DNA of 34,804 bases, taken from the IMG/VR virus record IMGVR_UViG_3300025872_004374, positions 1 through 34,804 of that record. The stretch is one strand, 5' to 3'. The position numbers and the translations under genes were made by a program. The DNA comes from a virus. The first letter of the stretch is position 1, and each line of letters starts with the position of its first letter. This document shows, piece after piece, positions 1,166 to 13,441 of this stretch. Under the pieces are notes generated by a model. It did no database searches. It saw nothing but the letters and a program-made list of their open reading frames with translations, and was not told where the DNA came from.

Positions 1166-1222
1166 ATTGTACCTCAAGTCAGCGCCTGGAAACCAGATCT
1201 GGTCCAGTTTTGTAACCGTCAC
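1166..1222 (-). promoter_or_regulatory. Early promoter cassette 1 (22-bp element plus TACAAT -10)
   Basis: On the minus strand a 22-bp element at 1222-1201 (GTGACGGT, four bases, AAAACTGGACC at the far end) is followed 29 nt later by TACAAT at 1171-1166. An ATG then lies six bases downstream at 1159. The same arrangement recurs seven more times in the first 13.5 kb. The spacer contains the palindrome CCAGATCTGG. Confidence 0.6.
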
Positions 1223-1255
1223 ATGGTCCACCAGGCGCCTCTCTCGAGGAGAGCC

Positions 1256-1450
1256 TCAATGAAGCCGCTCTGCAAAGTCGTCAAACCCCTGCTTTCCGCC
1301 ACACCATCGGGAGTAGCGGTCCTCAGGAGGACGGTTCGGGCGCTTCAGACGGCTGAGGTACGCGTCTGCTCGTGGGTCTGTGATGAGTACGGCGGTGCCG
1401 TGGTCTTGGGCCATCAGCGATGGCACTGTGTCGGGACGATGAGTTGACAT
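1256..1450 (-). CDS. Small hypothetical protein (64 aa)
   Basis: I chose the ATG at 1450 (MSTHRPDTVPSLMAQDHG), preceded by GTTACC as at the hsp20 start. The frame is open to about 1474, so a slightly longer form is possible. The C-terminal half is basic and Trp/Cys-containing (RYSRWCGGKQGFDDFAERLH). No known family recognised. It stands alone between the GNAT gene and cassette 1. Confidence 0.55.
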   Translation of the reverse strand: MSTHRPDTVPSLMAQDHGTAVLITDPRADAYLSRLKRPNRPPEDRYSRWCGGKQGFDDFAERLH

Positions 1451-1498
1451 GGTAACTGATGCGAACATCAGCAACTTTTTACGAGGTTACCAATCTCG

Positions 1499-1933
1499 TC
1501 AGGCCCACTTGTCAGTGGCGGCCTCGGTGAAACTCTTACCCGGATAGGGGTTCTTCACCATCATGAAACCGCCCTGATCAAGGTCACGGCGGTAGCCGAG
1601 ACGCTCGTAGAAGCCTGATGTGGCGCGTCCGGCCCAGATCGTGAGGTTGTCATTGCACCCTCGCTCGATCCACTTCACCGCGGCCGTGCCGATGCCCCTG
1701 CGTCTCCACTTGGGGAACAGGTAGAGGGACTCGAGGGCGGCGCAGTCCTCCCACTCGAAGATCTCGGCGAAGCCGGCGTAGACGTGGTAGTAGTCTTCTG
1801 GAACGGTGATTCCCCAGAGCTTCGCTCCCTCGGCCACGGCACCGACCAGATACTCGTACCAGTGCTCACCCTTCTCGAACTCCGTCTCGTGGGCCCAGAG
1901 CACCGCTGCAGCGCCTTTGCCGAGGTAGGTCAG
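1499..1933 (-). CDS. GNAT-family N-acetyltransferase, start codon unclear
   Basis: The segment LFPKWRRRGIGTAAVKWIE carries the RRxGxG acetyl-CoA pyrophosphate loop (motif A) of GNAT enzymes, and FYERLGYRR is the usual C-terminal motif B. The substrate is unknown. The start is unusual. The frame is open far into the upstream gene, with an ATG at 2029, but no ATG lies near that gene's end. A CTG at 1933 overlaps the upstream TGA as CTGA, and a GTG at 1903 preceded by AAAGG would give 134 aa. I used the coupled position. Translational coupling to, or a frameshift from, the upstream TIGR03792-like gene is possible. Confidence 0.65.
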   Translation of the reverse strand: MTYLGKGAAAVLWAHETEFEKGEHWYEYLVGAVAEGAKLWGITVPEDYYHVYAGFAEIFEWEDCAALESLYLFPKWRRRGIGTAAVKWIERGCNDNLTIWAGRATSGFYERLGYRRDLDQGGFMMVKNPYPGKSFTEAATDKWA

Positions 1934-2205
1934 ATCGATCTGAGCATCACCACCTTCGACCCGAAGAGCTGACGCATCTTCATGTTGAGAGGCGTCATCT
2001 CGTCCTTCTTCTGTGCTGCTCGGTCCCATGACGCTTTGTCTCTCCACCAGATGCGGTTGGTTGCGATGCCTGCTTTGCAGTCGATCTGCTTGTTGATGAA
2101 GCCCCTCTGCTGGCGAAGCCACGGGAGCCAGTAGTCCTCTTCAAACTTCAGCCAGTCGTCCTTGACTGAGGGATGGACCATGAACTGCAACTGCTCAAGA
2201 ATCAC
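1930..2205 (-). CDS. TIGR03792-like small cyanobacterial-type protein (91 aa)
   Basis: A 91-residue protein with a GTG start 11 nt inside the upstream gene. Its pattern (ILEQLQFMVHPSVKDDWL, then DYWLPWLRQQRGFINKQI, then IWWRDKASWDRA) resembles the short cyanobacterial TIGR03792 family, a ferredoxin-like alpha/beta-barrel fold related to antibiotic-biosynthesis monooxygenases. The assignment comes from recalled pattern and length, not from a search. The role in a phage is unknown. Confidence 0.5.
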   Translation of the reverse strand: MILEQLQFMVHPSVKDDWLKFEEDYWLPWLRQQRGFINKQIDCKAGIATNRIWWRDKASWDRAAQKKDEMTPLNMKMRQLFGSKVVMLRSI

Positions 2206-2452
2206 GTTTCCACTCCGTCCACTTTTGAATGGGGCACTCCATGTTGGCCATGGTTGTCTTCAACGGCATGAAGCAGCCGCAGATTTGACATGTGCGAGCT
2301 TCACTATTATAGCGGTCGCACGATTCGCAAACCTCCATTCGTAACATGGACACGCGGCGAGGGGCCACAGATGGGTCCTCAAGCAGCCGCTTAGCCGTGT
2401 CCTTGATTGAGGCAGCAAAGCTCCGCCTACAGCACTCCGGTGAGTCTGACAT
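2195..2452 (-). CDS. Small zinc-ribbon protein (85 aa)
   Basis: Residues about 42-73 carry CESC, then 10 residues, CQICGC, then CP near the end, which is a typical four-cysteine zinc-ribbon layout. The N-terminal half is helical and basic. ATGA overlap with the upstream gene and an 11-nt overlap with the next place it inside an operon. Similar zinc-ribbon microproteins are common in cyanophages. A nucleic-acid or protein-binding role is only an inference. Confidence 0.6.
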   Translation of the reverse strand: MSDSPECCRRSFAASIKDTAKRLLEDPSVAPRRVSMLRMEVCESCDRYNSEARTCQICGCFMPLKTTMANMECPIQKWTEWKRDS

Positions 2453-2997
2453 CAGTCCCAGTACGATTGGATAGTTTCCAGATGTTTCAGGACGATCTCC
2501 TCGTCCGTGGTCCTGTAGACGGATTTTACACTGCCTTCGGTCTGGTAGAGGCGAAGCTCCTGTAGAGCGGCTCGCACGACAGTGCAGTCAGCCACCCACT
2601 CGCGTAACCAGAAGACATTGAACTTCTCCTTGTAGTGCCAGAGCGGATCGTCATAGGTCCAGACCCGCTTCGGCTCGGGCTGGTTGTTAGCCCGATTGAC
2701 CCAGTCGGCGAGGAAGTCATACTCTTCGTCGCTCTCTCGGGCGGTCATACTCTCTTCGAGCTGAGCCTGGAACGCACGCTCCTCCTCCTCAGGGGTGCCG
2801 GTGACGACCACCTGTCTGTAGTCCTGAGCTCGGGCCATGGCCTTGTCCCGGTAGTAGCCAGGGTCGCAGCGGAAGACGCAGTTGACGATCAGGTAAGGGA
2901 CGTTGGGGTAGCGGAAGAAGCCCTCCTCAGTGAGCTGGCCACCACCACCGGAGCGGGCACGCCAGCTGAGGTCGAGGATGTGAACTTCGTTACTCAT
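2452..2997 (-). CDS. Hypothetical protein (181 aa)
   Basis: The ATG at 2997 (MSNEVHILDLSWRARSGGGG) overlaps the upstream TGA by ATGA, so the 14 extra codons upstream are not needed. The protein is acidic and soluble with many aromatic residues (VWTYDDPLWHYKEKFNVFWL). I see no signal peptide or membrane segment and no motif I can name. Confidence 0.65.
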   Translation of the reverse strand: MSNEVHILDLSWRARSGGGGQLTEEGFFRYPNVPYLIVNCVFRCDPGYYRDKAMARAQDYRQVVVTGTPEEEERAFQAQLEESMTARESDEEYDFLADWVNRANNQPEPKRVWTYDDPLWHYKEKFNVFWLREWVADCTVVRAALQELRLYQTEGSVKSVYRTTDEEIVLKHLETIQSYWD

Positions 2998-3179
2998 TTT
3001 CCGGACCTCCATGTTAGACAGTCGGTGAACGACTCCCACTTCTCGTCGTAGAGCTCATCCTCGTGACCAGCTCCTACATCCTGAAGGCAGATGCCCACGA
3101 TCTCAGCCTCGACCCACCCGTACCCGTCGATGTGGATGGGGTGGGAAGCGGCGAGCAGGAGAGCGAGGAGACTAGACAT
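2994..3179 (-). CDS. Small hypothetical protein with hydrophobic N-terminus (61 aa)
   Basis: The ATG at 3179 (MSSLLALLLAASHPIHIDG) overlaps the stop of the upstream gene by eight bases. The first 13 residues are strongly hydrophobic and could be a signal peptide or short membrane anchor. The rest is acidic. Function unknown. Confidence 0.55.
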   Translation of the reverse strand: MSSLLALLLAASHPIHIDGYGWVEAEIVGICLQDVGAGHEDELYDEKWESFTDCLTWRSGK

Positions 3180-3432
3180 TGATCTTGCCGAGTGCGGCTC
3201 GGTAGAAGGCTTCGAGGCTCGGGCCATGGGTACTTGGGACACCGAACTTCTCCGCGAAAGCAGCAACCGCAGCACGCTCAGGCATGTAGCTCAGCGTCCG
3301 CTTGTCGAACTCCATGTGCGGCAGAAGGGCCAGAAATGACCCAACCACGACGTCATAGAGGGCAGCCATGTCCTCTTCTGGGATGTTGACAGTCCTGGTT
3401 GTTGGTGCCAAGCAGGAGAACTGAACTTCCAT
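3172..3432 (-). CDS. Hypothetical protein (86 aa), possibly the second part of a split gene
   Basis: Starts at the ATG at 3432 (MEVQFSCLAPTTRTVNIPEE). The downstream sequence looks like a real protein (AALYDVVVGSFLALLPHMEF, then AFAEKFGVPST). The frame of the gene just upstream stays open through this start and then turns into sequence that looks like a shadow of this one. Either the two overlap by about 140 nt or a frameshift joins them. No family recognised. Confidence 0.5.
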   Translation of the reverse strand: MEVQFSCLAPTTRTVNIPEEDMAALYDVVVGSFLALLPHMEFDKRTLSYMPERAAVAAFAEKFGVPSTHGPSLEAFYRAALGKINV

Positions 3433-3551
3433 AGCCACTTGTGAACGGGGTAGATTGGGGGAGCGAAGTGCATGACCCACAGAGGTGAGTCGGTTGCTTC
3501 GAGGTAGTCGTAGGCCTTCTTGAAGGCCGCTGGGCGAATTGGTGGGTTCAC
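3291..3551 (-). CDS. Hypothetical ORF (86 aa), GTG start, frameshift candidate
   Basis: Starts at a GTG overlapping the upstream TGA (GTGA). The first 40 residues (for example KKAYDYLEATDSPLWVMHF) look protein-like. After about position 3432 the composition turns rich in Trp, Ser and Arg, like an out-of-frame reading of the neighbour. The natural product may be this N-terminus joined to the 86-aa protein at 3172-3432 by a frameshift, or this may be an extensively overlapping gene. Confidence 0.35.
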   Translation of the reverse strand: MNPPIRPAAFKKAYDYLEATDSPLWVMHFAPPIYPVHKWLWKFSSPAWHQQPGLSTSQKRTWLPSMTSWLGHFWPFCRTWSSTSGR

Positions 3552-3952
3552 TTGTTCATTTGCAGGGTGGGCACGGGCATACCGCCTTCAGTCGGCACGT
3601 AGACGGTCACGTTGCCGTGCTTGGCACCTTCCTCCAGGTTGGTGATGTAGAGGTACTGAAGGTACTCGCGGTTGCCCTTCAGGGAGTCACCAATGATCTG
3701 GTTGGCCTTGGCAACGCCACCGGCACGGATGATCTCGGCTTCAGCCAGCTGTTGAGCAGAGTCCTTTTTCGCCTGGGCTTCCAGCACGGCCACCTGGCGA
3801 GTGTACTCAGCCTCTTGCAGCAGAGCCTTACCGTTCAGGGTTTTGGTCCACACGTTGTACTGAGGGAGACCGTAAGCGAGGCCACCGATGGTAACGACGC
3901 CGACGAGGCTGAGGGCGAGGGCGGCAGGGAGAGGACTGTCGTTGTAGCTCAT
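3548..3952 (-). CDS. Prohibitin-like (SPFH/Band 7-type) membrane protein
   Basis: A 134-residue protein with one N-terminal membrane segment (about residues 10-28). It is followed by a long Ala/Glu/Gln-rich helix (ALLQEAEYTRQVAVLEAQA, then AEAEIIRAGGVAKANQIIG) typical of the C-terminal half of prohibitin/SPFH proteins, and it ends with VTVYVPTEGGMPVP. It is much shorter than full prohibitins and lacks most of the SPFH beta domain. T4-like cyanophages carry prohibitin-like genes; a role in stabilising membrane complexes during infection is an inference. It has its own putative promoter upstream. Confidence 0.65.
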   Translation of the reverse strand: MSYNDSPLPAALALSLVGVVTIGGLAYGLPQYNVWTKTLNGKALLQEAEYTRQVAVLEAQAKKDSAQQLAEAEIIRAGGVAKANQIIGDSLKGNREYLQYLYITNLEEGAKHGNVTVYVPTEGGMPVPTLQMNK

Positions 3953-3969
3953 GGTTTGAGTGGTGGGTG

Positions 3970-4009
3970 ATTAGCGTAGGGAGAGGGACGCGGCAGGAAA
4001 CCGCGCCCC
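3970..4009 (-). promoter_or_regulatory. Intergenic hairpin and putative -10 of the prohibitin-like gene
   Basis: Between the DUF932 stop and the prohibitin-like start there is a GC-rich hairpin (GGGACGCGG at 3985-3993 against CCGCGCCCC at 4001-4009), without a clean T-run. GCTAAT follows at 3975-3970 and may be a -10 box. The 5' leader CACCCACCACTCAAACC precedes the ATG and has no Shine-Dalgarno sequence. Nearly the same leader words precede a possible GTG start at 8343. Confidence 0.4.
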
Positions 4010-4016
4010 ACAAAAC

Positions 4017-4844
4017 TCAGGCGACTGCGAGCTCGGTCAGAACGCTCAGAGCGCGCTGGTTGACGCGGTTGCCAGTGCCGAAGTTCACGTACTGGAACTG
4101 CGCCTTGGCGGTCTTGCGAGCCTCGTTCGAGGTGAAATCAGTCACAGCGTTGAAGGCATCATAGAGAGTGCGACCCTCGTTGCCACGGCCGCTGTAGAAC
4201 AGCTGGTTGAGCTTGTCGATGGCCTTGATCTCGCTCGCCTTGCGATCGAAGATCTGCTCCAGCGCATTGTGGAACTGACCGCTCGTGCAGGAGGTCTGCG
4301 AGAGCTGCTCGACGTGCTTGGAGTACTGCTCCATGCAGACGGAGACGTAGTTGGAGACCGCTGTGGTCTCGAGTACGCGCTCGTTCACGCCTGCCGTGTG
4401 GCGGAACTTCTCGCTGATGTCCGAATAGGCCATCGCGAAGGTGTTGCCACAGATGACGCGCACAGCGGAGGTGCCGATGGCCACAGACTTGTTGCCAGCG
4501 TGACCGTTGAGGAAGGTGATGTAGGACTGGTAGTCCTCACCAATGACTTGGAACTCCTTCTCGATCTTCGCCTGAACGAAGACGCTCGCGCCGTGGGCGA
4601 GGTAGCCCACGTTCTCGATCTTGAGGAGGCCCTCCTCCTGCAGAGGCTTGATGAGGCTCAGCAGAGTCTCGTTCTGCACGATCTCGTAGTCGGGGGAGAC
4701 GGTGCCGAGGCCACGGCCGGTGTCGTCACGGACGATGGCGACCTTCTGGTCCCACTGCACAGGCTGGCCGTTGTTGCCGGTGAAGAACAGAGGGCGCTTG
4801 GAGACGGTCCAGTTGAGGTCGTTGGTGACAGCGAAAGCAGGCAT
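4017..4844 (-). CDS. DUF932 phage/plasmid-like protein (275 aa)
   Basis: The sequence follows the DUF932/TIGR03299 pattern: an N-terminal VSPDYEIVQNETLLSLI, a middle YITFLNGHAGNKSVAIGTS, then VRVICGNTFAMAYSD and a helical C-terminus. This family is widespread in phages and plasmids; its molecular function is not established. Full length for the family. It follows a TACAAT -10 box with an A/C-rich leader (CAACCAACACCCTCAAAACC) and appears monocistronic. Confidence 0.8.
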   Translation of the reverse strand: MPAFAVTNDLNWTVSKRPLFFTGNNGQPVQWDQKVAIVRDDTGRGLGTVSPDYEIVQNETLLSLIKPLQEEGLLKIENVGYLAHGASVFVQAKIEKEFQVIGEDYQSYITFLNGHAGNKSVAIGTSAVRVICGNTFAMAYSDISEKFRHTAGVNERVLETTAVSNYVSVCMEQYSKHVEQLSQTSCTSGQFHNALEQIFDRKASEIKAIDKLNQLFYSGRGNEGRTLYDAFNAVTDFTSNEARKTAKAQFQYVNFGTGNRVNQRALSVLTELAVA

Positions 4845-4872
4845 GGTTTTGAGGGTGTTGGTTGACTTGACT

Positions 4873-4878
4873 ATTGTA
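4873..4878 (-). promoter_or_regulatory. Putative -10 box of the DUF932 gene
   Basis: Minus-strand TGTGGTACAATAG is an extended -10 (TGnTACAAT) placed 28 nt before the ATG. No convincing -35 or 22-bp element lies at the expected distance, unlike the repeated cassettes. Confidence 0.5.
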
Positions 4879-4901
4879 CCACAGTTTTCGGTGTGGAAAC
4901 C

Positions 4902-5210
4902 TCAGTTGGTGATGGGGCAGACGGCCACTTGGTAGCCACCGCCGGTGGAACGCAGGCACTCCTTGTTGCGGACGCCCACAGCCCAGCCGTTACCGCGGGA
5001 GTAGGTGTCGTACGGAGTGGCGATCCAGCCGACGTAGCCGTCGCTGGCAAACTGAACGGTGCAGGGGAAGGTGGCAGTGGCGGAGCCGCCCTCCCACTGA
5101 CGGCACTGGGTGTCGAATGCCATCTGGGCACGGGCGGGAGCCACGGGGATGGCGATTGCCAGAGCGGCGAGGGCAGAGGTGAGGAGCTTCATGGTGGGTT
5201 GGTTGCTCAT
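4902..5210 (-). CDS. Small secreted protein with signal peptide (102 aa)
   Basis: From the ATG at 5192 the sequence MKLLTSALAALAIAIPVAP followed by ARAQ is a classical signal peptide with an AxA cleavage site. The mature part (about 73 aa) has four Cys residues (CRQWEGG, FPCTVQF, KECLRS, VAVCP) that could form disulfides. An in-frame ATG at 5210 (MSNQPTM) lies exactly six bases after the TATGAT box, so a leaderless start is also possible; I annotated that longer form. Function unknown; periplasmic or exported location inferred. Confidence 0.65.
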   Translation of the reverse strand: MSNQPTMKLLTSALAALAIAIPVAPARAQMAFDTQCRQWEGGSATATFPCTVQFASDGYVGWIATPYDTYSRGNGWAVGVRNKECLRSTGGGYQVAVCPITN

Positions 5211-5216
5211 GTGGCT

Positions 5217-5273
5217 ATCATACAGCGAAAAGGGCCTCGCTGGAGGCCCTTGTGCCACTTCTCACACCGGCAC
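5217..5273 (-). promoter_or_regulatory. Early promoter cassette 2 (22-bp element, terminator, TATGAT -10)
   Basis: The element at 5273-5252 reads GTGCCGGT, four bases, then GAAGTGGCAC, with GTGCC/GGCAC arms. The TATGAT box lies at 5222-5217, 29 nt away. The spacer is filled by an intrinsic terminator (see 5226-5250). An ATG follows six bases after the -10. Confidence 0.6.
5226..5250 (-). terminator. Intrinsic terminator inside cassette 2
   Basis: Minus-strand AGGGCCTC, loop CAGC, GAGGCCCT, then TTTTCG: a perfect 8-bp stem with a short T-run. It would stop the operon ending at 5275 immediately before the next promoter. Confidence 0.75.
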
Positions 5274-5274
5274 A

Positions 5275-5481
5275 TCAAAAGACGTCGTTGGGCTCGAACT
5301 CGGCGTGCCAGGTGTACTGTTCGGCTTCTTCATCGCAAAAGAGTAGTGAGAGTGCAAGGTCGGCGACGGTCTCCACGTCGTGGCGGGACAGTCCGTCCAG
5401 GGTGACGCCGATGCCGTCGTTGGCGAGGGTCATGGAGTAGAAGCCCCACTTCTCGTCGTAGGAGCCGGTGGTCTGAATCAT
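5275..5481 (-). CDS. Small hypothetical protein (68 aa)
   Basis: The ATG at 5481 (MIQTTGSYDEKWGFYSMTL) overlaps the upstream TGA by ATGA. The protein is acidic, with no membrane segment. It is the last gene of its operon, since a strong terminator follows 25 nt after its stop. Not recognised. Confidence 0.6.
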   Translation of the reverse strand: MIQTTGSYDEKWGFYSMTLANDGIGVTLDGLSRHDVETVADLALSLLFCDEEAEQYTWHAEFEPNDVF

Positions 5482-5687
5482 TGGTCGCGTAGCATCTGAA
5501 CAGCTTTTACCAACAGGTCCCACTCCTCGAAGTCCAGGCGAACCTCGCTCCCATCGTCGTCGATAATCATCAGGAAGCGACCGCCACCGTCGTCGTCGAT
5601 GCGGACTTCGGTGCCGAGGAAGTGGCAGTCCTCCTCACGAGTGATGGAGATTGAGTGGATCTGTGACTTGTACTTGACTTCACTCAT
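5478..5687 (-). CDS. Small acidic hypothetical protein (69 aa)
   Basis: Begins at the ATG at 5687 (MSEVKYKSQIHSISI), overlapping the upstream stop by eight bases. The sequence alternates acidic turns and beta-like stretches (RFLMIIDDDGSEVRLDFEEW), which suggests a small all-beta or alpha/beta protein. Function unknown. Confidence 0.6.
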   Translation of the reverse strand: MSEVKYKSQIHSISITREEDCHFLGTEVRIDDDGGGRFLMIIDDDGSEVRLDFEEWDLLVKAVQMLRDQ

Positions 5688-6469: not shown

Positions 6470-6663
6470 TGAAAGAGTGCGCGAGTGTCGATCACGAGGA
6501 AGGTCTCGTCGGTGTCGTAGGCCGACGCTAGGTGCAGACCCTCTCTCTTGAGGAGCTCGGCGGTGTCGTGGTCCCCGCGGAGAACAAGCTGTTCCACACG
6601 GTCAGCGAGGAGCTCCAGCCTGTCGGCGATCAGGAGCTCCAGTCGTTGCTGTTGGTCAGTCAT
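6466..6663 (-). CDS. Small hypothetical helical protein (65 aa)
   Basis: Starts at the ATG at 6663 (MTDQQQRLELLIADRLELL), overlapping the upstream stop by eight bases. The N-terminal 45 residues are a predicted amphipathic, Leu-heptad helix, so dimerisation by a coiled coil is plausible. Function unknown. Confidence 0.6.
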   Translation of the reverse strand: MTDQQQRLELLIADRLELLADRVEQLVLRGDHDTAELLKREGLHLASAYDTDETFLVIDTRALFQ

Positions 6664-6925
6664 AGCGGGAACCGAGGTCGGCACCAGGATTTTCGAAGTG
6701 CTCGACTGAGGCAGCGATGTCAGCCTCGTCGAAGCAGAACTGGACAGGGTTGCCGTTGAGCACGATGTCGTACTGAGTGTACTCCACAGGGCGGAGAGGC
6801 TCACCCTTGTACCAGTCGCCAGCCATCCGTGTTTGGGTCTTGGCGACGATCAGGTACTCGGTGCCAGTCCGAGGGGACTGGTAGGTGGTCAGAGGGAGTG
6901 TTTTCATGATGGGTTGGTTTTCCAT
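6656..6925 (-). CDS. Small hypothetical protein (89 aa), first gene of an operon
   Basis: Two in-frame starts: ATG at 6925 (MENQPIM), exactly six bases after the TACATT -10, and ATG at 6907 (MKTLPLTTYQSPRTG), preceded by AACCAACCCATC. The beta-rich sequence (EYLIVAKTQTRMAGDWYKGE) is followed by an acidic tail. No Shine-Dalgarno sequence is visible. Not recognised. Confidence 0.6.
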   Translation of the reverse strand: MENQPIMKTLPLTTYQSPRTGTEYLIVAKTQTRMAGDWYKGEPLRPVEYTQYDIVLNGNPVQFCFDEADIAASVEHFENPGADLGSRYD

Positions 6926-6931
6926 ATTCCT

Positions 6932-6991
6932 AATGTACCATGCCAGAGCGGGGTTGTGACATGGCCCTTGTGACAGTTTGTCAACTGGCAC
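6932..6991 (-). promoter_or_regulatory. Early promoter cassette 3
   Basis: The 22-bp element at 6991-6970 reads GTGCCAGT, TGAC, AAACTGTCAC. The -10 TACATT is at 6937-6932 with TG one base upstream, separated by 32 nt. ATG follows six bases after the -10. The spacer (AAGGGCCATGTCACAACC) resembles that of cassette 7. Confidence 0.6.
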
Positions 6992-7168
6992 TCACTTGAG
7001 GAGGCCCTCGAGGAAGCCGTTAATGCCCGCTCCGGCAACTGTAGCCCAGAAGGAGGGATCGGTAGCGCATTCGGCGATGGCTTGAGCCCAATCCTCAGGT
7101 GTGGCTTTGGAGAGGGCAGCCCGTTCCTCAGGCGTCAGCTCAGCCATGATCTCGTTCATACTGTCCAT
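6992..7168 (-). CDS. Small hypothetical protein (58 aa)
   Basis: A 58-codon ORF, MDSMNEIMAELTPEERAALS onward, overlapping the end of the upstream gene by 13 nt and ending one base before cassette 3. It is helical and acidic with a hydrophobic C-terminal stretch (ATVAGAGINGFLEGLL). Function unknown. Confidence 0.55.
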   Translation of the reverse strand: MDSMNEIMAELTPEERAALSKATPEDWAQAIAECATDPSFWATVAGAGINGFLEGLLK

Positions 7169-7329: not shown

Positions 7330-7517
7330 TTGTAACCGTAGTGCTCCTCAATGAGGTTGACAAGGGTGTCGACAGCAAATGGCCGACACCATCCTTTGGT
7401 GATGAGCTTCTCCCTCAGGCTCTCCCGCCGCTCGATGTCGGCGAGAGTGCGGAGACCTTCATCATTCTTTTCGTAGAAGCGTTCCACCGCCTCCCAAGCC
7501 ATCTCTTCAGGCGTCAT
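7326..7517 (-). CDS. Small hypothetical protein (63 aa)
   Basis: Opens MTPEEMAWEAVERFYEKNDE. It overlaps the acidic tail of the upstream gene by 11 nt and the next start by ATGA. Two predicted helices joined by a basic loop. No known domain seen. Confidence 0.6.
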   Translation of the reverse strand: MTPEEMAWEAVERFYEKNDEGLRTLADIERRESLREKLITKGWCRPFAVDTLVNLIEEHYGYK

Positions 7518-7992
7518 CCTCCTCCTCCTCGACTTCCTCCTCCTCGTAAGAGCCGCCGGTCACGATCTGCACGCTGTCGAAGCAGAGAGTGCCGTTGTCG
7601 TCGAAGACATCGCCATTCACCATCTCAAACTCAAACTCCACGATCTGGCCGTGGCCTTGGCTGATGGTGCGCTCCAGCTTGTCGGTAGCGATGATGTCAT
7701 CCACCTTGATGGCGCCGATGGTGCCACTGTCGACCGCGTAGGTACGGCCTTCGGCATCGCAGTAGAAGCCGTCACCGTATGCGGTTCTCAAGATGAAGAA
7801 CTGACGACCGTCAGCGAGCTCCAGAAGGTCACCAGGCTCGTTGTCAGGATCGAATGATTGCTCACACACCTCACTCCACACATCGTCTTCGATGACGTAG
7901 CAGAGGTCGCCGACGTAGTACTTGACAGTTTCGGTGGTCATGGTTTCAAGGAAAGTGGGTTGGAAGTCAGCCATGCGGTCTTGGATGGACAT
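7507..7992 (-). CDS. Hypothetical acidic protein (161 aa; 144 aa from the inner start)
   Basis: The body begins YYVGDLCYVIEDDVWSEVCE, a pattern I associate with short phage proteins of unknown function, and ends in a run of Glu and Asp (SYEEEEVEEEEDDA). Start at 7992 overlaps the upstream 27-codon ORF by ATGA. A second start at 7941 (MTTETVKYYVG) places the conserved block at the N-terminus and is preceded by CAACCCAC and GAAACC, like other cassette leaders. Function unknown. Confidence 0.65.
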   Translation of the reverse strand: MSIQDRMADFQPTFLETMTTETVKYYVGDLCYVIEDDVWSEVCEQSFDPDNEPGDLLELADGRQFFILRTAYGDGFYCDAEGRTYAVDSGTIGAIKVDDIIATDKLERTISQGHGQIVEFEFEMVNGDVFDDNGTLCFDSVQIVTGGSYEEEEVEEEEDDA

Positions 7993-8075: not shown

Positions 8076-8081
8076 GTTTCT

Positions 8082-8139
8082 ATATTAGCGTGCTTGCGGG
8101 TGGAGCGGGGGATTGGTAGGCCGCTTTGTGAACCGGCTG
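8082..8139 (-). promoter_or_regulatory. Early promoter cassette 4
   Basis: A diverged 22-bp element at 8139-8118 (CAGCCGGT, four bases, AAAGCGGCCT) lies 30 nt before a TAATAT box at 8087-8082. The ATG follows six bases on. The spacer shares AATCCCCCGCT with cassette 5. Confidence 0.5.
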
Positions 8140-8148
8140 CGGCACAGC

Positions 8149-8379
8149 CTAGGCCGACTCAAGCTCGGCGGCGATGGCGAGGAGTTGACCTCGAACATCT
8201 TGCATTGTTTCACCGTAAATGTCGTTGTCCTCGTGCCAGAACTCTGGCACCACCTGGTCCGCAGCAGCACGCAGGGCGGCGGCAAGCATCCCTTCATCGT
8301 TTTCGTCGGGGTAGTAAGGGACCGAATTAAAGGCATCGAGCACGGCTTGAGTGGTGGGTGAGAGAGCGTTCTTTTCCAT
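8149..8379 (-). CDS. Small hypothetical protein (76 or 64 aa)
   Basis: Soluble acidic sequence (VPYYPDENDEGMLAAALRAA, then EFWHEDNDIYGETMQDVRG). The ATG at 8379 (MEKNALSPTTQ) lies six bases after TATACT. A GTG at 8343 is preceded by CACCCACCACTCAAGCC, almost identical to the leader of the prohibitin-like gene, and would give 64 aa. No family recognised. Confidence 0.55.
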   Translation of the reverse strand: MEKNALSPTTQAVLDAFNSVPYYPDENDEGMLAAALRAAADQVVPEFWHEDNDIYGETMQDVRGQLLAIAAELESA

Positions 8380-8385
8380 GAGTGT

Positions 8386-8443
8386 AGTATAGGTCATTCT
8401 TAGGGTCAGCGGGGGATTTCTGTTCCAGTTTGGCAACCGGTTG
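8386..8443 (-). promoter_or_regulatory. Early promoter cassette 5
   Basis: The element at 8443-8422 (CAACCGGT, TGCC, AAACTGGAAC) is followed 30 nt later by TATACT at 8391-8386. It retains the inner core but has lost the outer GTG/CAC arms. The spacer shares a block with cassette 4. Confidence 0.5.
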
Positions 8444-8447
8444 GCCC

Positions 8448-8690: not shown

Positions 8691-8950
8691 CACACTATAC
8701 CATAGTCTTCGAGCTGCTCCTCGAGCTCAGCGGTGAACTGCTCAAGCTCGTCCTCGTCCATGTCGACGAGCACGTAGGTGCTGGCCTTCTCGAGGAGGCT
8801 GTGGAAGTAGTTCCAGTTCGGCAGCACGGCCACAGCCTGACGGCAGCAGTCGGCGACGAGTTCAATGGTGGCTTCGTCGAGGTCGTCCTCGCCGGTGTAG
8901 TTGGCGATGGCGTGCTCGGCGGCTTCGAGGTAGGTTGCGAAGTCAGTCAT
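8690..8950 (-). CDS. Small acidic helical protein (86 aa)
   Basis: Starts at the ATG at 8950 (MTDFATYLEAAEHAIANYT), preceded by AGCAAACCACC. Ends in an Asp/Glu-rich helix. Its final codons (TAT GGT ATA GTG TGA) double as the -10 box of the next gene. Not recognised. Confidence 0.6.
   Translation of the reverse strand: MTDFATYLEAAEHAIANYTGEDDLDEATIELVADCCRQAVAVLPNWNYFHSLLEKASTYVLVDMDEDELEQFTAELEEQLEDYGIV
8694..8699 (-). promoter_or_regulatory. -10 box embedded in a coding end
   Basis: Minus-strand TATGGTATAGTG: TGnTATAGT extended -10 overlaps the stop of the 86-aa gene, and the next ATG follows three bases after it. No 22-bp element is visible at about 31 nt upstream. Confidence 0.4.
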
Positions 8951-8960
8951 GGTGGTTTGC

Positions 8961-9134
8961 TCAGTTGTAGAGGCGGGTGGTTTCGACGTCGCTGTTGGTG
9001 CGGGGGTCGAACTTGACCAGATCGACCACAGCGTCAGGACGCTGCTGGTGGCCGATGGCGGCCATCTTGAGGACCTTGGCTTTGGTGTAGTGGCCGGTGG
9101 CAGCGATGCCATTGACTTGCAGATACCAGTTCAT
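8961..9134 (-). CDS. Small hypothetical protein (57 aa)
   Basis: ATG at 9134 (MNWYLQVNGIAATGHYTKAK), first gene after cassette 6. The N-terminal aromatic strand followed by KAKVLKMA is compatible with a small DNA- or protein-binding fold, but there is no recognisable motif. Preceded by AAAACCACC rather than a Shine-Dalgarno sequence. Confidence 0.6.
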   Translation of the reverse strand: MNWYLQVNGIAATGHYTKAKVLKMAAIGHQQRPDAVVDLVKFDPRTNSDVETTRLYN

Positions 9135-9155
9135 GGTGGTTTTGCTGATAGACCT

Positions 9156-9212
9156 ATCATACACCACCAGCCGCTCAGCACGCGGCGTGTGTGCCGCTTT
9201 TCTGACTGGCAC
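9156..9212 (-). promoter_or_regulatory. Early promoter cassette 6
   Basis: The element at 9212-9191 (GTGCCAGT, CAGA, AAAGCGGCAC) has good GTGCC/GGCAC symmetry and lies within the last codons of the upstream glycosylase gene. TATGAT is at 9161-9156, 29 nt away. The spacer holds a small GCCGC/GCGGC hairpin. The position of the leaderless ATG is ATC here; the usable ATG is 15 nt further on. Confidence 0.6.
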
Positions 9213-9621
9213 ACCAGAACTGGTTGAGGAACATGGTGAGAGCACCGTCATTCACCTCCTCAGGCTTGGGCCTGTGGCCACGGATGAAGATGCGGTGGCT
9301 GTCGTACGCGTACTGCCCGCATCCGTACAGATCACGTGGGTCCTTGCCGTCCCACTTGAGGTATTGCTCGCTCATCCTGCGCAGGCGCTTCGCCTTGACA
9401 TTGCAGAAGCCGTGAGGCTTGAGGAGGTGCTCCAGGAAGTTATCCGAGACGGCCATTGCTTCCGGAGTGGGGAAATGCTGAAGGACTCGAGCGAGCGTCC
9501 GGTCCCACGCCGGCGTGCGCTTGCTCTGATTGAGAAGGACCGCTGCCACCAGGATCTCCCACTCTGTGGTGAGCTGTTGCTGGATGAGCGGTCCGTGGGG
9601 CGTGTAGACGAACTGTCTCAC
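9175..9621 (-). CDS. HhH-GPD base-excision DNA glycosylase, MBD4-like
   Basis: A 148-residue protein. WEILVAAVLLNQSKRTPAW (about 21-39) matches the start of HhH-GPD glycosylases. FCNVKAKRLRRMSEQYL (72-88) corresponds to the helix-hairpin-helix region. LYGCGQYAYDSHRIF (98-112) corresponds to the G/P/D loop with the catalytic Asp at about 107, closest in my memory to the MBD4 thymine-glycosylase domain. It has no Fe-S cluster cysteines. It would remove a damaged or mismatched base, acting on phage or host DNA. The C-terminus encodes the 22-bp regulatory element of the next operon. Confidence 0.7.
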   Translation of the reverse strand: MRQFVYTPHGPLIQQQLTTEWEILVAAVLLNQSKRTPAWDRTLARVLQHFPTPEAMAVSDNFLEHLLKPHGFCNVKAKRLRRMSEQYLKWDGKDPRDLYGCGQYAYDSHRIFIRGHRPKPEEVNDGALTMFLNQFWCASQKSGTHAAC

Positions 9622-9857
9622 TGTTGGTAGTAGTCGTCGGGGTATGTCTCGAGGAGGGCGTAGTAGGCCTCCAGAGCCGAGTAGGTGGGCGGGAGGGCGC
9701 CTATCTTTGCGAGGAGCTTGTCACGGAAGTCGAGGGCACCCTTGGAGTAGTAGTAGCCGTAGACCGTCTCGTGGTCCTTGTCCTCCTCCTGCTTGGTTGC
9801 CAGAGACATCTTGTTCAGCTCCTTGGAGAGCCGCCGAAGCTCCTCAGAGAGACTCAT
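9618..9857 (-). CDS. Small hypothetical protein (79 aa)
   Basis: ATG at 9857 (MSLSEELRRLSKELNKMSL), overlapping the upstream gene by 14 nt; its stop overlaps the glycosylase start by ATGA. It is helical and Tyr-rich (VYGYYYSKG, SALEAYYALLETYPDDYYQQ). Function unknown. Confidence 0.6.
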   Translation of the reverse strand: MSLSEELRRLSKELNKMSLATKQEEDKDHETVYGYYYSKGALDFRDKLLAKIGALPPTYSALEAYYALLETYPDDYYQQ

Positions 9858-10038
9858 TCGGCACCTCCACGTCAAACATCTCAGCCTCCATCAGAAGGTC
9901 ACTGTCGTCCATGAGGATGTACTCGTCGAGGTACATGTCGTAGACGAGGCGCTCGAGTGTCTCCACCTCGATGTCCTTCATCATCTTGTCTGCCAGTCGC
10001 TCAGCGAGGAGAGCGCGCTGCATGTCATTCAGTTTCAT
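9844..10038 (-). CDS. Small acidic helical protein (64 aa)
   Basis: MKLNDMQRALLAERLADKMM onward. An ATGA overlap begins it. The composition is helical with many Met, Asp and Glu. No motif recognised. Confidence 0.6.
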   Translation of the reverse strand: MKLNDMQRALLAERLADKMMKDIEVETLERLVYDMYLDEYILMDDSDLLMEAEMFDVEVPNESL

Positions 10039-10196
10039 TCGCCTTCGTCGCGCATCACGACGCAGAGTTGGTGGAAGGTGAGCTCACCCTTAATGTAGTG
10101 GTCCATGGCTGTCATGAGCACCTCGCTGGGTGTGCATCCGGTCAGTTCTATCTGACGGAGGGTGCTCTCACACCACGTCCGCTTCGCCTCGGTCAT
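10035..10196 (-). CDS. Small hypothetical protein (53 aa)
   Basis: ATG at 10196 (MTEAKRTWCESTLRQIELTG) or four codons upstream at 10208. It overlaps the upstream gene by 29 nt and ends with ATGA into the next. A helical domain with two Cys residues. Not recognised. Confidence 0.5.
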   Translation of the reverse strand: MTEAKRTWCESTLRQIELTGCTPSEVLMTAMDHYIKGELTFHQLCVVMRDEGE

Positions 10197-10518
10197 GTTT
10201 CGCGGCATCGTCAAGCTCCTGGTTGATCCTGTCCAGCTCACGCTGGGTGTACTTGGTGTCGCCTTCCACGGCGTCCCACAGCAGGTTGTGGATGTCCATG
10301 TAGCGGGCTTCCATGCCGAGGACGTAAGCCTCAGGCCCCCAGCCGAAGACGTCGTAGAGAACGCCACGGTAGGAGCGGCGCTTCATCACGTCACCCTCGT
10401 AGATACGGCGGCAGACGTTGTAGAAGGCTTTCTGCTGATCCTCAGTAGGAAGGTTCTCCCACCACGTCTCCATCTCCGATGTCCACTGCTCCGTAGCTTC
10501 TCTCCACTGTCGAGACAT
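10168..10518 (-). CDS. Hypothetical protein (116 aa)
   Basis: ATG at 10518 (MSRQWREATEQWTSEMETWW) is preceded by GGAGTGGCAGGAG, one of the few good Shine-Dalgarno sequences here. The longer open frame upstream is Ser/Thr-rich and lies in the neighbour. Trp-rich and helical. It overlaps the AbrB-like gene by 77 nt, which is long for this genome. Function unknown. Confidence 0.55.
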   Translation of the reverse strand: MSRQWREATEQWTSEMETWWENLPTEDQQKAFYNVCRRIYEGDVMKRRSYRGVLYDVFGWGPEAYVLGMEARYMDIHNLLWDAVEGDTKYTQRELDRINQELDDAAKHDRGEADVV

Positions 10519-10708
10519 CTCCTGCCACTCCGGACTGTCCAAGAAGCTCGTCCGTGACTTTGGTGATTCGGATGCTGTCTCCGACGACTGTCCAGTCGAG
10601 GACTGTTCCTTCGTCCCATCCGAGTTGTTCCCAGATGGCATCAGGGATCTCAAAGAAGAGTTCTCCATTGTCGAGTTCTTGCAGTTCTACTGTTTGGTCC
10701 AGGGACAT
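10442..10708 (-). CDS. AbrB/SpoVT-like small DNA-binding protein (88 aa)
   Basis: Residues 1-52 (ELDNGELFFEIPDAIWEQLG, then GTVLDWTVVGDSIRITKV) match the swapped-hairpin AbrB/MazE fold: a strand, the IPxxxWEQLGW helix and two strands. Such proteins are dimeric transcription factors or antitoxins. The last 30 residues lie over the next gene and look less structured. AGGA lies 12 nt upstream of the ATG. No toxin partner is visible next to it. Confidence 0.6.
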   Translation of the reverse strand: MSLDQTVELQELDNGELFFEIPDAIWEQLGWDEGTVLDWTVVGDSIRITKVTDELLGQSGVAGDVSTVERSYGAVDIGDGDVVGEPSY

Positions 10709-11079
10709 GGCTTTTCGTATCCTTTGAAGATGATTGCGTGGCCAGACAGGTACATCTCGCGAGAGAGTTCCTGCCCGCTGGGAGTATAGACGCGTGCGAT
10801 GGTGCGACCGTAGAGATCCGTGCCGACACGATCGATGGTCAAGTCAGATCCTCCGATCAGTTTCGCAAGGTAATCGCGGGAAGCGACCGCAGCTGGTTTG
10901 TCCGCCTTCTTCTTGGCGGTGTTCTTCATCTCAGGCGTGTCGATGCACGCGAGGCGGACTTTCTCACCTGAGCTGAGAGTGATGGTGTCACCGTCGTAGA
11001 CGGATTTCACCGTCTCGGCGTTCGCCGCAGCAGGTAGCAGGAGCAAAGCGGCGAGCAGAGACTTAAAGACGCGTTCCAT
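10687..11079 (-). CDS. Secreted staphylococcal-nuclease-like (thermonuclease) protein
   Basis: A signal peptide spans residues 1-21 (MERVFKSLLAALLLLPAAANA). The SNase fold follows: VKSVYDGDTITLSSGEKVRL, then ACIDTPE with the catalytic-region residues, then DLYGRTIARVY and a C-terminal helix region. SNase family enzymes cleave DNA or RNA with Ca2+. At 130 aa it is full length for a compact member. Export implies action in the periplasm or outside; degrading host DNA after lysis is one idea. Confidence 0.75.
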   Translation of the reverse strand: MERVFKSLLAALLLLPAAANAETVKSVYDGDTITLSSGEKVRLACIDTPEMKNTAKKKADKPAAVASRDYLAKLIGGSDLTIDRVGTDLYGRTIARVYTPSGQELSREMYLSGHAIIFKGYEKPCPWTKQ

Positions 11080-11242
11080 GTTCGATGATGTCGAGCAGAC
11101 GGGTTGAATCCACCATGAGGAGGTCGTTCCTCATGCGGTTGAGCTTGTCACGCCCCTTCGGGGTGGACTTCTGAGTTGCTAGGACGACGGCGTCCTTACC
11201 GACGTACTCGATGAGACGGATCTCACTGGGCGCATTCCACAT
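11063..11242 (-). CDS. Small hypothetical protein (59 aa)
   Basis: ATG at 11242 (MWNAPSEIRLIEYVGKDAVV), overlapping both neighbours by about 20 nt. Basic middle (TQKSTPKGRDKLNRMRNDL). Function unknown. Confidence 0.55.
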   Translation of the reverse strand: MWNAPSEIRLIEYVGKDAVVLATQKSTPKGRDKLNRMRNDLLMVDSTRLLDIIEHGTRL

Positions 11243-11411
11243 AGTTCTCAACGACGAATGGATCTTCAATGATGGACACGTAGTCGATGTCCTCTCCGGC
11301 CTCCTGCAGGGCTCGGACAGCACTCGCGACGGACATGAACCGACGCGTGCACTTCCAGCCCCAATCAGAGCCTTGCCAGGCTTGACCCTGGTCATTCAGA
11401 ACGATGAACAT
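11223..11411 (-). CDS. Small hypothetical protein (62 aa)
   Basis: ATG at 11411 (MFIVLNDQGQAWQGSDWGW), 20-nt overlap with the upstream gene. The pattern FMSVASAVRALQEAGEDIDY suggests a strand-helix fold. Not recognised. Confidence 0.55.
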   Translation of the reverse strand: MFIVLNDQGQAWQGSDWGWKCTRRFMSVASAVRALQEAGEDIDYVSIIEDPFVVENYVECAQ

Positions 11412-11979
11412 TGAATGCTCCCCCAAGCAGGTTCAGTGTAGCAGGAGTCTTACCACGATGAACCAGTCCGTTGCGCGAACCCTGCCACAGACGGCTGGCG
11501 TCCATGGAGTGCTTGTCGGCGTGGCCACCAGCGATCTGAGAGAACTCCTTGATGAAGGCACGCACGTCCTCGTAGGAGACGTTGAGGTCGGTTTCTGCCT
11601 TCCACACGAGGCGGTAGGAGCGGCCCTCGACCTTGCGGTCGCTGAAGGTCGCGTAGGCGAACCATGGCTCGAAGCCCTCGTCGGTGAAGTGCTTGACCAT
11701 GAGCTCGGGCTCGATGGGGCACTTGTCGAAGTCGAGAGCGATGGCAGTCTGCTGCCGCCAGCAGTTCTTCTGGTGGCCGTCGGCCTCGGTGAGGAGGTCG
11801 TGGCCGTTGAACAGACAGCCGTACCACGGCGTGCCTTGGTTGGTGACGAGGTCGATGAAGCGGTCCTCGTCCAGCGCCACCCATGGCGACTGGATCATCA
11901 CGTCACGCAGCTTGCCGTACTCCTGAATGGTCTCAGGCTTGGCGGCGCGTGGTTTACCGAGCTGGCAGAGGAAAGTCAT
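11392..11979 (-). CDS. Putative archaeo-eukaryotic primase (AEP)-fold protein, standalone
   Basis: A 195-residue protein with TAIALDFDKCP (DxD at residues 83 and 85), then SYRLVWK (about 121-127), then SMDASRLWQGS (Asp160). This order, a metal-binding DhD, a short RLVW strand and a later D with SRxWxG, is the layout of the AEP/prim-pol catalytic domain. I do not see the fingers-type zinc motif or a fused helicase. If active it could make primers or short DNA; it may equally be an inactive relative. Leader CAACCAACC, with TACAAT 22 nt before the ATG. Confidence 0.5.
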   Translation of the reverse strand: MTFLCQLGKPRAAKPETIQEYGKLRDVMIQSPWVALDEDRFIDLVTNQGTPWYGCLFNGHDLLTEADGHQKNCWRQQTAIALDFDKCPIEPELMVKHFTDEGFEPWFAYATFSDRKVEGRSYRLVWKAETDLNVSYEDVRAFIKEFSQIAGGHADKHSMDASRLWQGSRNGLVHRGKTPATLNLLGGAFNVHRSE

Positions 11980-12001
11980 GGTTGGTTGGTTGTCTGTGCC
12001 T

Positions 12002-12007
12002 ATTGTA
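12002..12007 (-). promoter_or_regulatory. Putative extended -10 of the primase-like operon
   Basis: Minus-strand TGTGGTACAATAGGCAC contains TGnTACAAT. The transcript would begin close to AGACAACCAACC and the ATG of the primase-like gene. No 22-bp element is present upstream. Confidence 0.5.
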
Positions 12008-12013
12008 CCACAT

Positions 12014-12265
12014 TCAGGAGCCCTTGAGAGCTCGTGCGATGGAGTTCTTGACGAAGTTGAGGATGAGGTAGCCGCCGAAGACCTGAGGCCACGTCACGGC
12101 AAATCCGATGAGGAAGTGCAGGACGCTCCAGAAGACGGTCGTGGCGATGAGGAAGACGATGATGTTGGCAATTACCTCCCCGATGTCTGATCCGATGCGC
12201 TCTGCGTCGGTCATCTTAGCACGCTCCAGTTGCTTGAGCACTTTGTTGATGTTGGTGTCAGTCAT
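12014..12265 (-). CDS. Small membrane protein (83 aa)
   Basis: ATG at 12265 (MTDTNINKVLKQLERAKMTD), overlapping the upstream gene by eight bases. Two hydrophobic stretches (VIANIIVFLIATTVFWSVLH and ITGFAVTW-like VFGGYLIL) suggest one or two membrane passes. Function unknown. Confidence 0.55.
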   Translation of the reverse strand: MTDTNINKVLKQLERAKMTDAERIGSDIGEVIANIIVFLIATTVFWSVLHFLIGFAVTWPQVFGGYLILNFVKNSIARALKGS

Positions 12266-12446
12266 TGTGGGTGATGGCGTGGGAGTTGAAGAAGGCGACA
12301 GCAGCCAGGGTGTCAGCGATGACCTGCTCCTGAGCTTCGGTGGTCTTAACGTCGTCGAACGGAGCGAGCTTGTCATCCATGCCTCGGTTGATGAGGTCCT
12401 GGAGGATAGCGAACTGACCGTCAGTGAGGTGAATGGTGTGGCTCAT
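12258..12446 (-). CDS. Small hypothetical protein (62 aa)
   Basis: ATG at 12446 (MSHTIHLTDGQFAILQDLIN) overlapping by ATGA. Helical and acidic; the opening resembles short regulatory phage proteins, but I cannot name a family. Confidence 0.55.
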   Translation of the reverse strand: MSHTIHLTDGQFAILQDLINRGMDDKLAPFDDVKTTEAQEQVIADTLAAVAFFNSHAITHND

Positions 12447-12628
12447 TGCCCCGGATAGTTGAAGAGCTTGTTGATCCGATCGACCTCCTGCTCGAAGCAC
12501 TCCACGGTCTCAAATGGATCCATGTCGTGATCTTTCGCAAGTTGGTCGAGCCTCCAACGATAGGCCTCCGACTCAAGGAGCTGCTGAAGAATGAAGCGGC
12601 GAACCGCCTCTTTGTGCCTGAGTTTCAT
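12443..12628 (-). CDS. Small helical protein (61 aa)
   Basis: MKLRHKEAVRRFILQQLLES onward; ATGA overlaps at both ends. Two basic and acidic amphipathic helices. Function unknown. Confidence 0.55.
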   Translation of the reverse strand: MKLRHKEAVRRFILQQLLESEAYRWRLDQLAKDHDMDPFETVECFEQEVDRINKLFNYPGQ

Positions 12629-12768
12629 CGTCCGCGGTAGCAGTTGGTGTTCTCGACGCAGCCGTAGGAGGCGAAGCTCGAGTTGGCGGTGGAGTCCCTC
12701 GCTGAGGTGAAGACCAGAAGGCCCACCAGAGCGAGGAAGAGGGAGGAGGAAACGAGGATGGCTTTCAT
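12625..12768 (-). CDS. Small secreted or anchored protein (47 aa)
   Basis: ATG at 12768 (MKAILVSSSLFLALVGLLVF) gives an N-terminal signal or anchor segment. A short tail with two Cys residues (YGCVENTNCYRGR) could form a disulfide outside the cytoplasm. One base separates it from the upstream stop. Confidence 0.5.
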   Translation of the reverse strand: MKAILVSSSLFLALVGLLVFTSARDSTANSSFASYGCVENTNCYRGR

Positions 12769-12769
12769 C

Positions 12770-12934
12770 TCAGTAACCGTTGAGGAAGTCGTGGAGAGCT
12801 TCTTGGTACTGCTCCTCAGTCTCGAAGGTGCGAGCACCGATGGTGCAAGGGAAGGTCCGCTTGGGGGCAGCGGCCTTGCTGGGCTCACGGCCTTGAGCGA
12901 TGACCTGAGCGGTGTAGGGGTTGGTGTTGTTCAT
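12770..12934 (-). CDS. Small hypothetical protein (54 aa), leaderless candidate
   Basis: MNNTNPYTAQVIAQGREPSK onward. The ATG at 12934 lies exactly six bases after the TACAGT -10, so it would be the first codon of the mRNA. No in-frame ATG exists downstream, which makes this the clearest leaderless case in the window. Basic N-terminal half; function unknown. Confidence 0.6.
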   Translation of the reverse strand: MNNTNPYTAQVIAQGREPSKAAAPKRTFPCTIGARTFETEEQYQEALHDFLNGY

Positions 12935-12940
12935 GTTTGT

Positions 12941-12999
12941 ACTGTACCGTGGTTTTGGTGGTTTGGACATGGGCCTTGTGACAGTTCTCAGACCGTCAC
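12941..12999 (-). promoter_or_regulatory. Early promoter cassette 7
   Basis: The 22-bp element at 12999-12978 (GTGACGGT, CTGA, GAACTGTCAC) has good GTGAC/GTCAC symmetry. TACAGT is at 12946-12941, 31 nt away. The spacer starts AAGGCCCATGTC, as in cassette 3. Confidence 0.6.
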
Positions 13000-13136
13000 A
13001 GGACGGCCTCGACGAAGGCGGCGTGGCCAGTCTTCTGGTACTGGTCCTCAGCGTGGCGCCACGCCTCCTCGTAGGTGCGGACGAACTTGCGGTTGGTGGG
13101 AGTGATCCACACGATGTAGCCTTTGGTGGTTTTCAT
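12996..13136 (-). CDS. Small hypothetical protein (46 aa)
   Basis: A 46-codon ORF, MKTTKGYIVWITPTNRKFVR onward, two bases after the upstream stop. Basic N-terminal strand followed by a helix (YEEAWRHAEDQYQ). Its last codons run into cassette 7. Not recognised. Confidence 0.55.
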   Translation of the reverse strand: MKTTKGYIVWITPTNRKFVRTYEEAWRHAEDQYQKTGHAAFVEAVL

Positions 13137-13138
13137 GG

Positions 13139-13360
13139 TCAGTTCAGGTCGGAGGTGTCAGCGGTGATGAGGATGCGAGCGCACAGGTCCATCGTATCAT
13201 CCGCGGCCTGCTCGGTGGTGAAGTCGTAGGCGTCACCGATGGTCTCAGTGATGGCATCAGACACGCACTCGTAGACGATGTCCATCAGCTTGCTCTCGAG
13301 GGCGTCAGCCACCTTCTCGGCGGCGAGCTCGGCGATGAGCTTCTTGAGTTGGTTGTTCAT
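13139..13360 (-). CDS. Small helical protein (73 aa)
   Basis: ATG at 13360 (MNNQLKKLIAELAAEKVADA), preceded by GAGAAAACCACC. Ala/Asp/Glu-rich, probably all helical, with a hydrophobic heptad pattern. First gene after cassette 8. Function unknown. Confidence 0.6.
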   Translation of the reverse strand: MNNQLKKLIAELAAEKVADALESKLMDIVYECVSDAITETIGDAYDFTTEQAADDTMDLCARILITADTSDLN

Positions 13361-13382
13361 GGTGGTTTTCTCCAGTGGTACC

Positions 13383-13441
13383 ACCATACGACAAAAGGCC
13401 CCACCGAAGTGGAGCCTTGTGACAGTTTTCTGACCGGCCAC
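13383..13441 (-). promoter_or_regulatory. Early promoter cassette 8
   Basis: The element at 13441-13419 (GTGGCCGGT, CAGA, AAACTGTCAC; 23 bp) lies 30 nt before TATGGT at 13388-13383. As in cassette 2, an intrinsic terminator occupies the spacer. Confidence 0.55.
13392..13416 (-). terminator. Intrinsic terminator with TTCG tetraloop
   Basis: Minus-strand GGCTCCAC, loop TTCG, GTGGGGCC, then TTTTG: an 8-bp stem with one G-T pair and a T-run. It ends the operon that runs from 15205 down to 13442. Confidence 0.8.

Follow-up and report, generated by a model that had tools for sequence, protein, structure and literature searches.

A palindromic element of probable early cyanophage promoters recurs at the yfr2 promoters of cyanobacteria

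The stretch analysed here, hereafter the window, is a 34.8 kb viral sequence (IMG/VR record IMGVR_UViG_3300025872_004374, positions 1 to 34,804; 57% G+C) that encodes the ribonucleotide reductase genes NrdA and NrdB, a sigma factor and an endolysin-like gene, and that carries eight copies of a palindrome at a nearly fixed distance from a -10 box. Since its gene order (NrdB, NrdA, sigma factor, small heat shock protein and psbA with introns) is that of Synechococcus phage S-CBWM1, and its NrdA is 65.6% identical to that of phage S-TIM5, the window is probably a piece of a larger psbA-carrying cyanomyovirus related to these two phages and outside the T4-like Kyanoviridae. We propose, and consider probable, that the eight units are early cyanophage promoters whose dyad near -53 would be bound by a dimeric activator of the host, most likely PlmA.

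All eight palindromes lie on the minus (coding) strand, span 24 bp and imperfectly fit TGTGMCRGT-N6-ACYGKCACA, with TGTGMCRGTYNNNNRACYGKCACA as the conserved unit and TGTGMCRGT as the half-site. From the end of the 24-mer to a TAnnnT -10 box the distance is 28, 28, 31, 29, 29, 28, 30 and 29 bp for elements 1 to 8, and an open reading frame (ORF) on the same strand starts just downstream of every -10 box (8/8 units). The units are listed with their scores in a symmetric weight matrix.

1200..1223, minus strand: element 1, 24-bp dyad TGTGACGGTTACAAAACTGGACCA, 22.8 bits, -10 at +28
1166..1171, minus strand: promoter 1 -10 box TACAAT, before ORF 626-1159 (weak cytidylyltransferase-like match)
5251..5274, minus strand: element 2, TGTGCCGGTGTGAGAAGTGGCACA, 26.3 bits, -10 at +28, terminator-like hairpin in spacer
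5217..5222, minus strand: promoter 2 -10 box TATGAT, before ORF 4902-5210 (102 aa, no assigned function)
6969..6992, minus strand: element 3, AGTGCCAGTTGACAAACTGTCACA, the best site, 30.0 bits, -10 at +31
6932..6937, minus strand: promoter 3 -10 box TACATT, before ORF 6656-6925 (89 aa, no family match)
8117..8140, minus strand: element 4, degenerate, GCAGCCGGTTCACAAAGCGGCCTA, 6.7 bits, -10 at +29
8082..8087, minus strand: promoter 4 -10 box TAATAT, before a 27-codon ORF, 8075-7992
8075-7992: the 27-codon ORF, whose stop overlaps the start of ORF 7507-7992 (161 aa, phrog_20074)
8421..8444, minus strand: element 5, degenerate, CCAACCGGTTGCCAAACTGGAACA, 7.1 bits, -10 at +29
8386..8391, minus strand: promoter 5 -10 box TATACT, before ORF 8149-8379 (76 aa)
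9190..9213, minus strand: element 6, TGTGCCAGTCAGAAAAGCGGCACA, 28.5 bits, -10 at +28
9156..9161, minus strand: promoter 6 -10 box TATGAT, before ORF 8961-9134 (57 aa)
12977..13000, minus strand: element 7, TGTGACGGTCTGAGAACTGTCACA, 28.4 bits, -10 at +30
12941..12946, minus strand: promoter 7 -10 box TACAGT, before ORF 12770-12934 (54 aa)
13418..13441, minus strand: element 8, GTGGCCGGTCAGAAAACTGTCACA, 16.9 bits, -10 at +29, terminator-like hairpin in spacer
13383..13388, minus strand: promoter 8 -10 box TATGGT, before ORF 13139-13360 (73 aa)

The combination of element and -10 box at 28–31 bp occurs eight times in the window and 0.25 times in shuffles, in agreement with the first-pass annotation of this DNA, which had described eight minus-strand palindromes in fixed phase with -10 boxes. 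The length it gave, 22 bp, has to be extended by a T and an A at the ends to the 24-bp block that is also conserved in hosts, and its eighth 22-mer starts at 13440 rather than at 13441. The letters bear out the spacer sequence it reported as common to sites 3 and 7 and to sites 4 and 5, and the terminator-like hairpins in 2 and 8. No -35 box is evident, as it had remarked, with matches of at least 4/6 to TTGACA at a spacer of 16–18 found at one of the eight window promoters against 0.9 expected. Checked for the T4 late promoter TATAAATA, the window -10 boxes gave no match (0/8). Seven window matches reach at least 14 bits (0 in shuffles), one of which, at 16660 in the psbA intron region, lacks a -10 box at the proper distance, while elements 4 (8139) and 5 (8443) are weak (6.7 and 7.1 bits versus 17–30 for the others) and have proper spacing and -10 boxes. 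Because the window sites were included in the matrix training set, most of which came from four other phages and was found by a plain consensus pattern, the weight of the enrichment test rests on the other phages.

Two further features of the window were recorded. The psbA gene (15270–17142) seems to be split, as read from the ORFs, by a group I intron (Rfam match 16044–16922) that contains an ORF (16154–16777); the counterpart intron of S-CBWM1 holds a homing endonuclease. Near 4870, 12007 and 17920, TACAAT boxes resembling -10 boxes stand before genes without a palindrome, possibly representing a second promoter class.

Enrichment at promoters genome-wide, on which the first-pass annotation had staked its proposal beforehand, was found in several whole phage genomes. 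Matches of at least 14 bits number 24 in S-CRM01, 19 in P-SSM2, 16 in S-PM2 and 7 in Syn9, against 0.4 in the shuffled version of each; a score of at least 8 bits together with a -10 box at 28–31 bp is reached 25 times in S-CRM01 (shuffled 0), 27 times in P-SSM2 (1.25) and 24 times in S-PM2 (0.5). Across 73 sites from these four phages and the window, TAnnnT lies at 28–31 bp on one side in 64, compared with 13.4% of random positions (p ~4e-46). S-SKS1 and P-HM2 also have many sites, and the element is found upstream of genes in the T4-like cyanophages Syn9, S-PM2, P-SSM2, S-CRM01 and P-HM2. Outside that group, S-TIM5 holds a divergent cluster of ten sites with proper -10 spacing (163.8–170.9 kb), and the Microcystis siphophage Mic1 (MN013189.1, 56813–72125) has 49 copies, many in tandem arrays with a period of 56–62 bp, which lie upstream of small ORFs and whose last copy before the gene is typically about 30 bp ahead of CATAAT. 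These arrays may act as tandem promoters or soak up a host factor. The sole trait shared by the T4-like phages, the S-TIM5 lineage and Mic1 is their cyanobacterial hosts.

A pattern with 19 bases fixed, for which chance predicts roughly one match in 2.7e11 positions, hit 113 stretches of IMG/VR, many with cyanophage-like surroundings, which rules out a repeat private to the window phage. Among 61 non-redundant cases, a set selected for an AAGG flank, the -10 distance peaks at 30 bp (27/61) and 34 have a -35-like box at +7. Thus the single regulatory unit of the first-pass annotation stands as a promoter-linked element and falls as a cassette duplicated within one phage, given its occurrence in unrelated cyanophages and at host yfr2 genes. 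The matrix scan gave 0 sites in T4, PSS2 and S-EIV1 and one weak match in S-LBS1, and P-SSP7, P60, Syn5 and Ma-LMM01 had 0 sites at up to three mismatches. A signal kept in all close relatives was also rejected, as the 24-mers TGTGAAAGATTCGAAACTGTCCCA of S-CBWM1 have no -10 box at the proper distance and look like a separate repeat family; about ten copies of this other imperfect palindrome occur in NC_048106.1 (for example, 84560–84760, 96364–96476 and 26546–26658), some in tandem at a spacing of about 89 bp. In at least four marine contigs the dyad precedes a promoter that combines TTGACC, TATAAT and TATAAATA, as well as a conserved leader (GGCCCGAAA.TATCGTACCCTGTG with minor variation), perhaps marking a single gene family under joint early and late control.

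The clusters of sites in P-SSM2, S-PM2, Syn9, S-CRM01 and S-TIM5 sit in regions of small ORFs. In P-SSM2 the cluster spans 44–69 kb; in S-CRM01 (121–155 kb) the small ORFs are accompanied by transfer RNA arrays, in Syn9 (43–53 kb) by a DNA methyltransferase and a helicase, and the S-TIM5 cluster includes an anti-restriction protein and a Dda-like helicase. Gene types of this kind are typically expressed early, so the gene content suggests that the element controls early genes.

The palindromes could instead be RNA hairpins terminating the preceding genes, with no part in initiation; they are frequently found near the stop codon of the gene before, and the depositors of S-CRM01 (HQ615693.1) labelled two copies, at 125862–125891 and 154634–154661, Rho-independent terminators. 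We rejected this explanation, which we regard as very improbable indeed. No T run directly follows the dyad, the downstream -10 box keeps its spacing and several sites have a separate terminator hairpin in the spacer. Moreover, palindrome positions 5 and 20 (A-T 11, A-G 27, C-T 20 and C-G 26) show no covariation (Fisher p 0.18); the two vary independently, and therefore a DNA dyad bound by a protein dimer fits where an RNA stem does not.

The same element is present in the hosts, at promoters of Yfr2, a very abundant host small RNA. The palindrome, with at most one mismatch allowed, occurs in 18 of 292 cyanobacterial genomes, none of them smaller than about 3 Mb, and is far commoner than a reversed control pattern; at six of these loci the Cyano-1/Yfr2 small RNA lies directly downstream, and most of the six show a -10-like box some 30 bp past the palindrome. 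In the reverse test, host loci were picked by the RNA model alone and the matrix was trained on phage sites, with no host sequence. The best upstream match fell 33–42 nt before the RNA start at 40 of 58 non-redundant picocyanobacterial yfr2 genes (shuffled mean 8.1, p 2e-21) and at 13 of 21 others (shuffled mean 2.9, p 5e-7). As in the phages, the -10 box follows the host element by about 28–31 bp, the element being centred near -50; these distances are approximate, since the first base of the Rfam model served as the RNA start. Conservation at host yfr2 ends at the edges of the 24-mer, and choosing the best match makes the inside of the block look more conserved than it is, with no such effect on the position of the block. 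The picocyanobacterial element has a strong first half (TGTGACAGTTGA) and a weaker second half (AGCG.C), the AGCG variant occurring also in window elements 4 and 6.

Away from yfr2 the host signal is sparse. A scan of 41 picocyanobacteria for half-site, gap and -10 box gave four matches, two of them at yfr2, with no broader host regulon seen, and the host palindromes inspected away from yfr2 had no common neighbouring regulator gene. A genome scan for the perfect consensus, informative solely via the larger cyanobacteria, returned 24 stretches, mostly scattered non-cyanobacterial ones that we read as chance and none titled as a picocyanobacterium. Rfam models run on the window and two phage regions found no phage-borne Yfr2. 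At four picocyanobacterial yfr2 promoters the half-sites are back to back, AACTGTCAC and then directly TGTGACAGTT, whereas phage half-sites face each other; in Fischerella and relatives (five loci) a conserved near-palindrome, TGTGACRGTC.TTCAACTGTCACA, lies near a hairpin, AAAAGCTAC.GTAGCTTTT.

Several observations point to a candidate host protein. In the passage of PMC6778093 that cites Lambrecht 2018, the GntR factor PMM1637, found in all cyanobacteria, is described as binding CGRE1-containing yfr2 promoter regions, and CGRE1 as having no occurrence elsewhere in the MED4 genome. This factor, PlmA, takes part in PII-PipX complexes (PMC6243067), and Sll1961, the PlmA of Synechocystis, interacts with thioredoxin (PMC5923263). 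Among six picocyanobacterial genomes, five have a single GntR match and the sixth has in addition only one below threshold. Querying 50,697 phage records for PlmA produced one weak match, not from a cyanophage, and a comparison of PlmA with solved structures returned only generic GntR relatives.

In the proposed reading, each unit combines a dyad of 24 bp near -53 with a -10 box of the host sigma-70 type, the -35 box being poor or absent. The dyad would be bound, over about -41 to -65, by PlmA, a GntR factor specific to cyanobacteria (Prochlorococcus PMM1637, Synechocystis Sll1961) that reportedly controls yfr2, or by another host dimer. The bound protein would bring the host RNA polymerase to a promoter that has only a -10 box, and the incoming phage genome could thereby fire small takeover genes without a phage regulator. 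The first-pass annotation had allowed for an activator or a repressor; we favour activation because the site lies upstream of the core promoter, clear of the -10 box, and most of the promoters lack a -35 box, with PlmA as a strong host candidate. Its broader suggestion, a promoter-linked element near -53 without a -35 box that defines an early regulon, fits all the findings.

Two other assignments of the dyad were weighed. A regulator encoded by the phage, acting as an early activator or a later repressor, might bind it, in which case the likeness to yfr2 would be a resemblance or a secondary target. The version of the dyad varies by phage (S-TIM5 favours AGTGGCCCA), which could reflect co-evolution with a phage protein, and the stronger, symmetric phage sites could suit a protein different from that at yfr2. 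We find this unlikely, as the element is common to lineages as distinct as T4-like phages, S-TIM5 and the siphophage Mic1 and stands at host yfr2 promoters at an equal distance from the start; a search that was not exhaustive identified no candidate phage regulator. Alternatively, PlmA or another host regulator might repress or modulate the promoters, tuning early genes by host nitrogen or light. This shares the host yfr2 link with activation by PlmA, and Yfr2 levels do shift under high light and nitrogen limitation (PMC6778093). We nonetheless rate it as rather improbable: the location of the site relative to the core promoter and the scarcity of -35 boxes speak against it, as does the strength of the yfr2 promoter, that of Synechocystis Yfr2a, measured on a 300-bp fragment, being about as strong as psbA2 and stimulated by light (PMC2662882).

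Activation by PlmA also has points against it. A position near -53 would by itself fit activation or repression. Picocyanobacterial yfr2 elements are asymmetric and weaker than the phage sites, and it is by gene and location that CGRE1 would be the present element. The PlmA level reported for S. elongatus, about 400 chains per cell (PMC6243067), is low for so many phage sites, and S-CBWM1, the closest named relative of the window phage, has no recognisable sites.

More broadly, we give an even chance to the proposal that unrelated cyanophages (Kyanoviridae, the S-TIM5/S-CBWM1 lineage including the window, and Mic1) use the yfr2 promoter architecture, with PlmA, a factor linked to nitrogen and redox state, turning on the earliest viral genes and coupling infection to light and nitrogen, and Mic1 placing tandem arrays before single small genes. 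Given the contacts of PlmA with PII-PipX (PMC6243067) and with thioredoxin (PMC5923263), early viral transcription could follow the nitrogen and photosynthetic state of the host. The element may also serve as a marker for early operons in uncultured cyanophages.

Among known systems, the promoters resemble T4 middle promoters in that an upstream activator site replaces the -35 box of a sigma-70 promoter. In T4 the MotA box lies near -30 and requires the phage proteins MotA and AsiA, whereas here the site is a 24-bp dyad near -53 and the factor is probably of the host. Marine cyanomyoviruses lack Alt, ModA/B, MotA and AsiA of T4, and their route to early genes has been described as unclear (PMC2984593); a host factor acting through the host's own yfr2 promoter would be a direct, testable answer. 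The host yfr2 element, putatively CGRE1, shares with the phage element the sequence of its dyad or half-dyad and an equal -10 distance across cyanobacteria. It differs in having one or few sites per genome, asymmetric in picocyanobacteria, whereas phage sites are many, more symmetric and ahead of protein genes. Doron and colleagues reportedly described in 2016 a novel element that controls early genes in Syn9 and P-TIM40 and is abundant in T4-like cyanophages. Syn9 carries the present element with proper spacing at 43–53 kb, whereas the window phage, S-TIM5 and Mic1 fall outside the T4-like Kyanoviridae. Since the 2016 study and Lambrecht 2018 are said to have an author in common, the connection between phages and hosts may be in the literature already; the possible novelty lies in the joined phage–host picture, the reach beyond T4-like phages and the arrays of Mic1.

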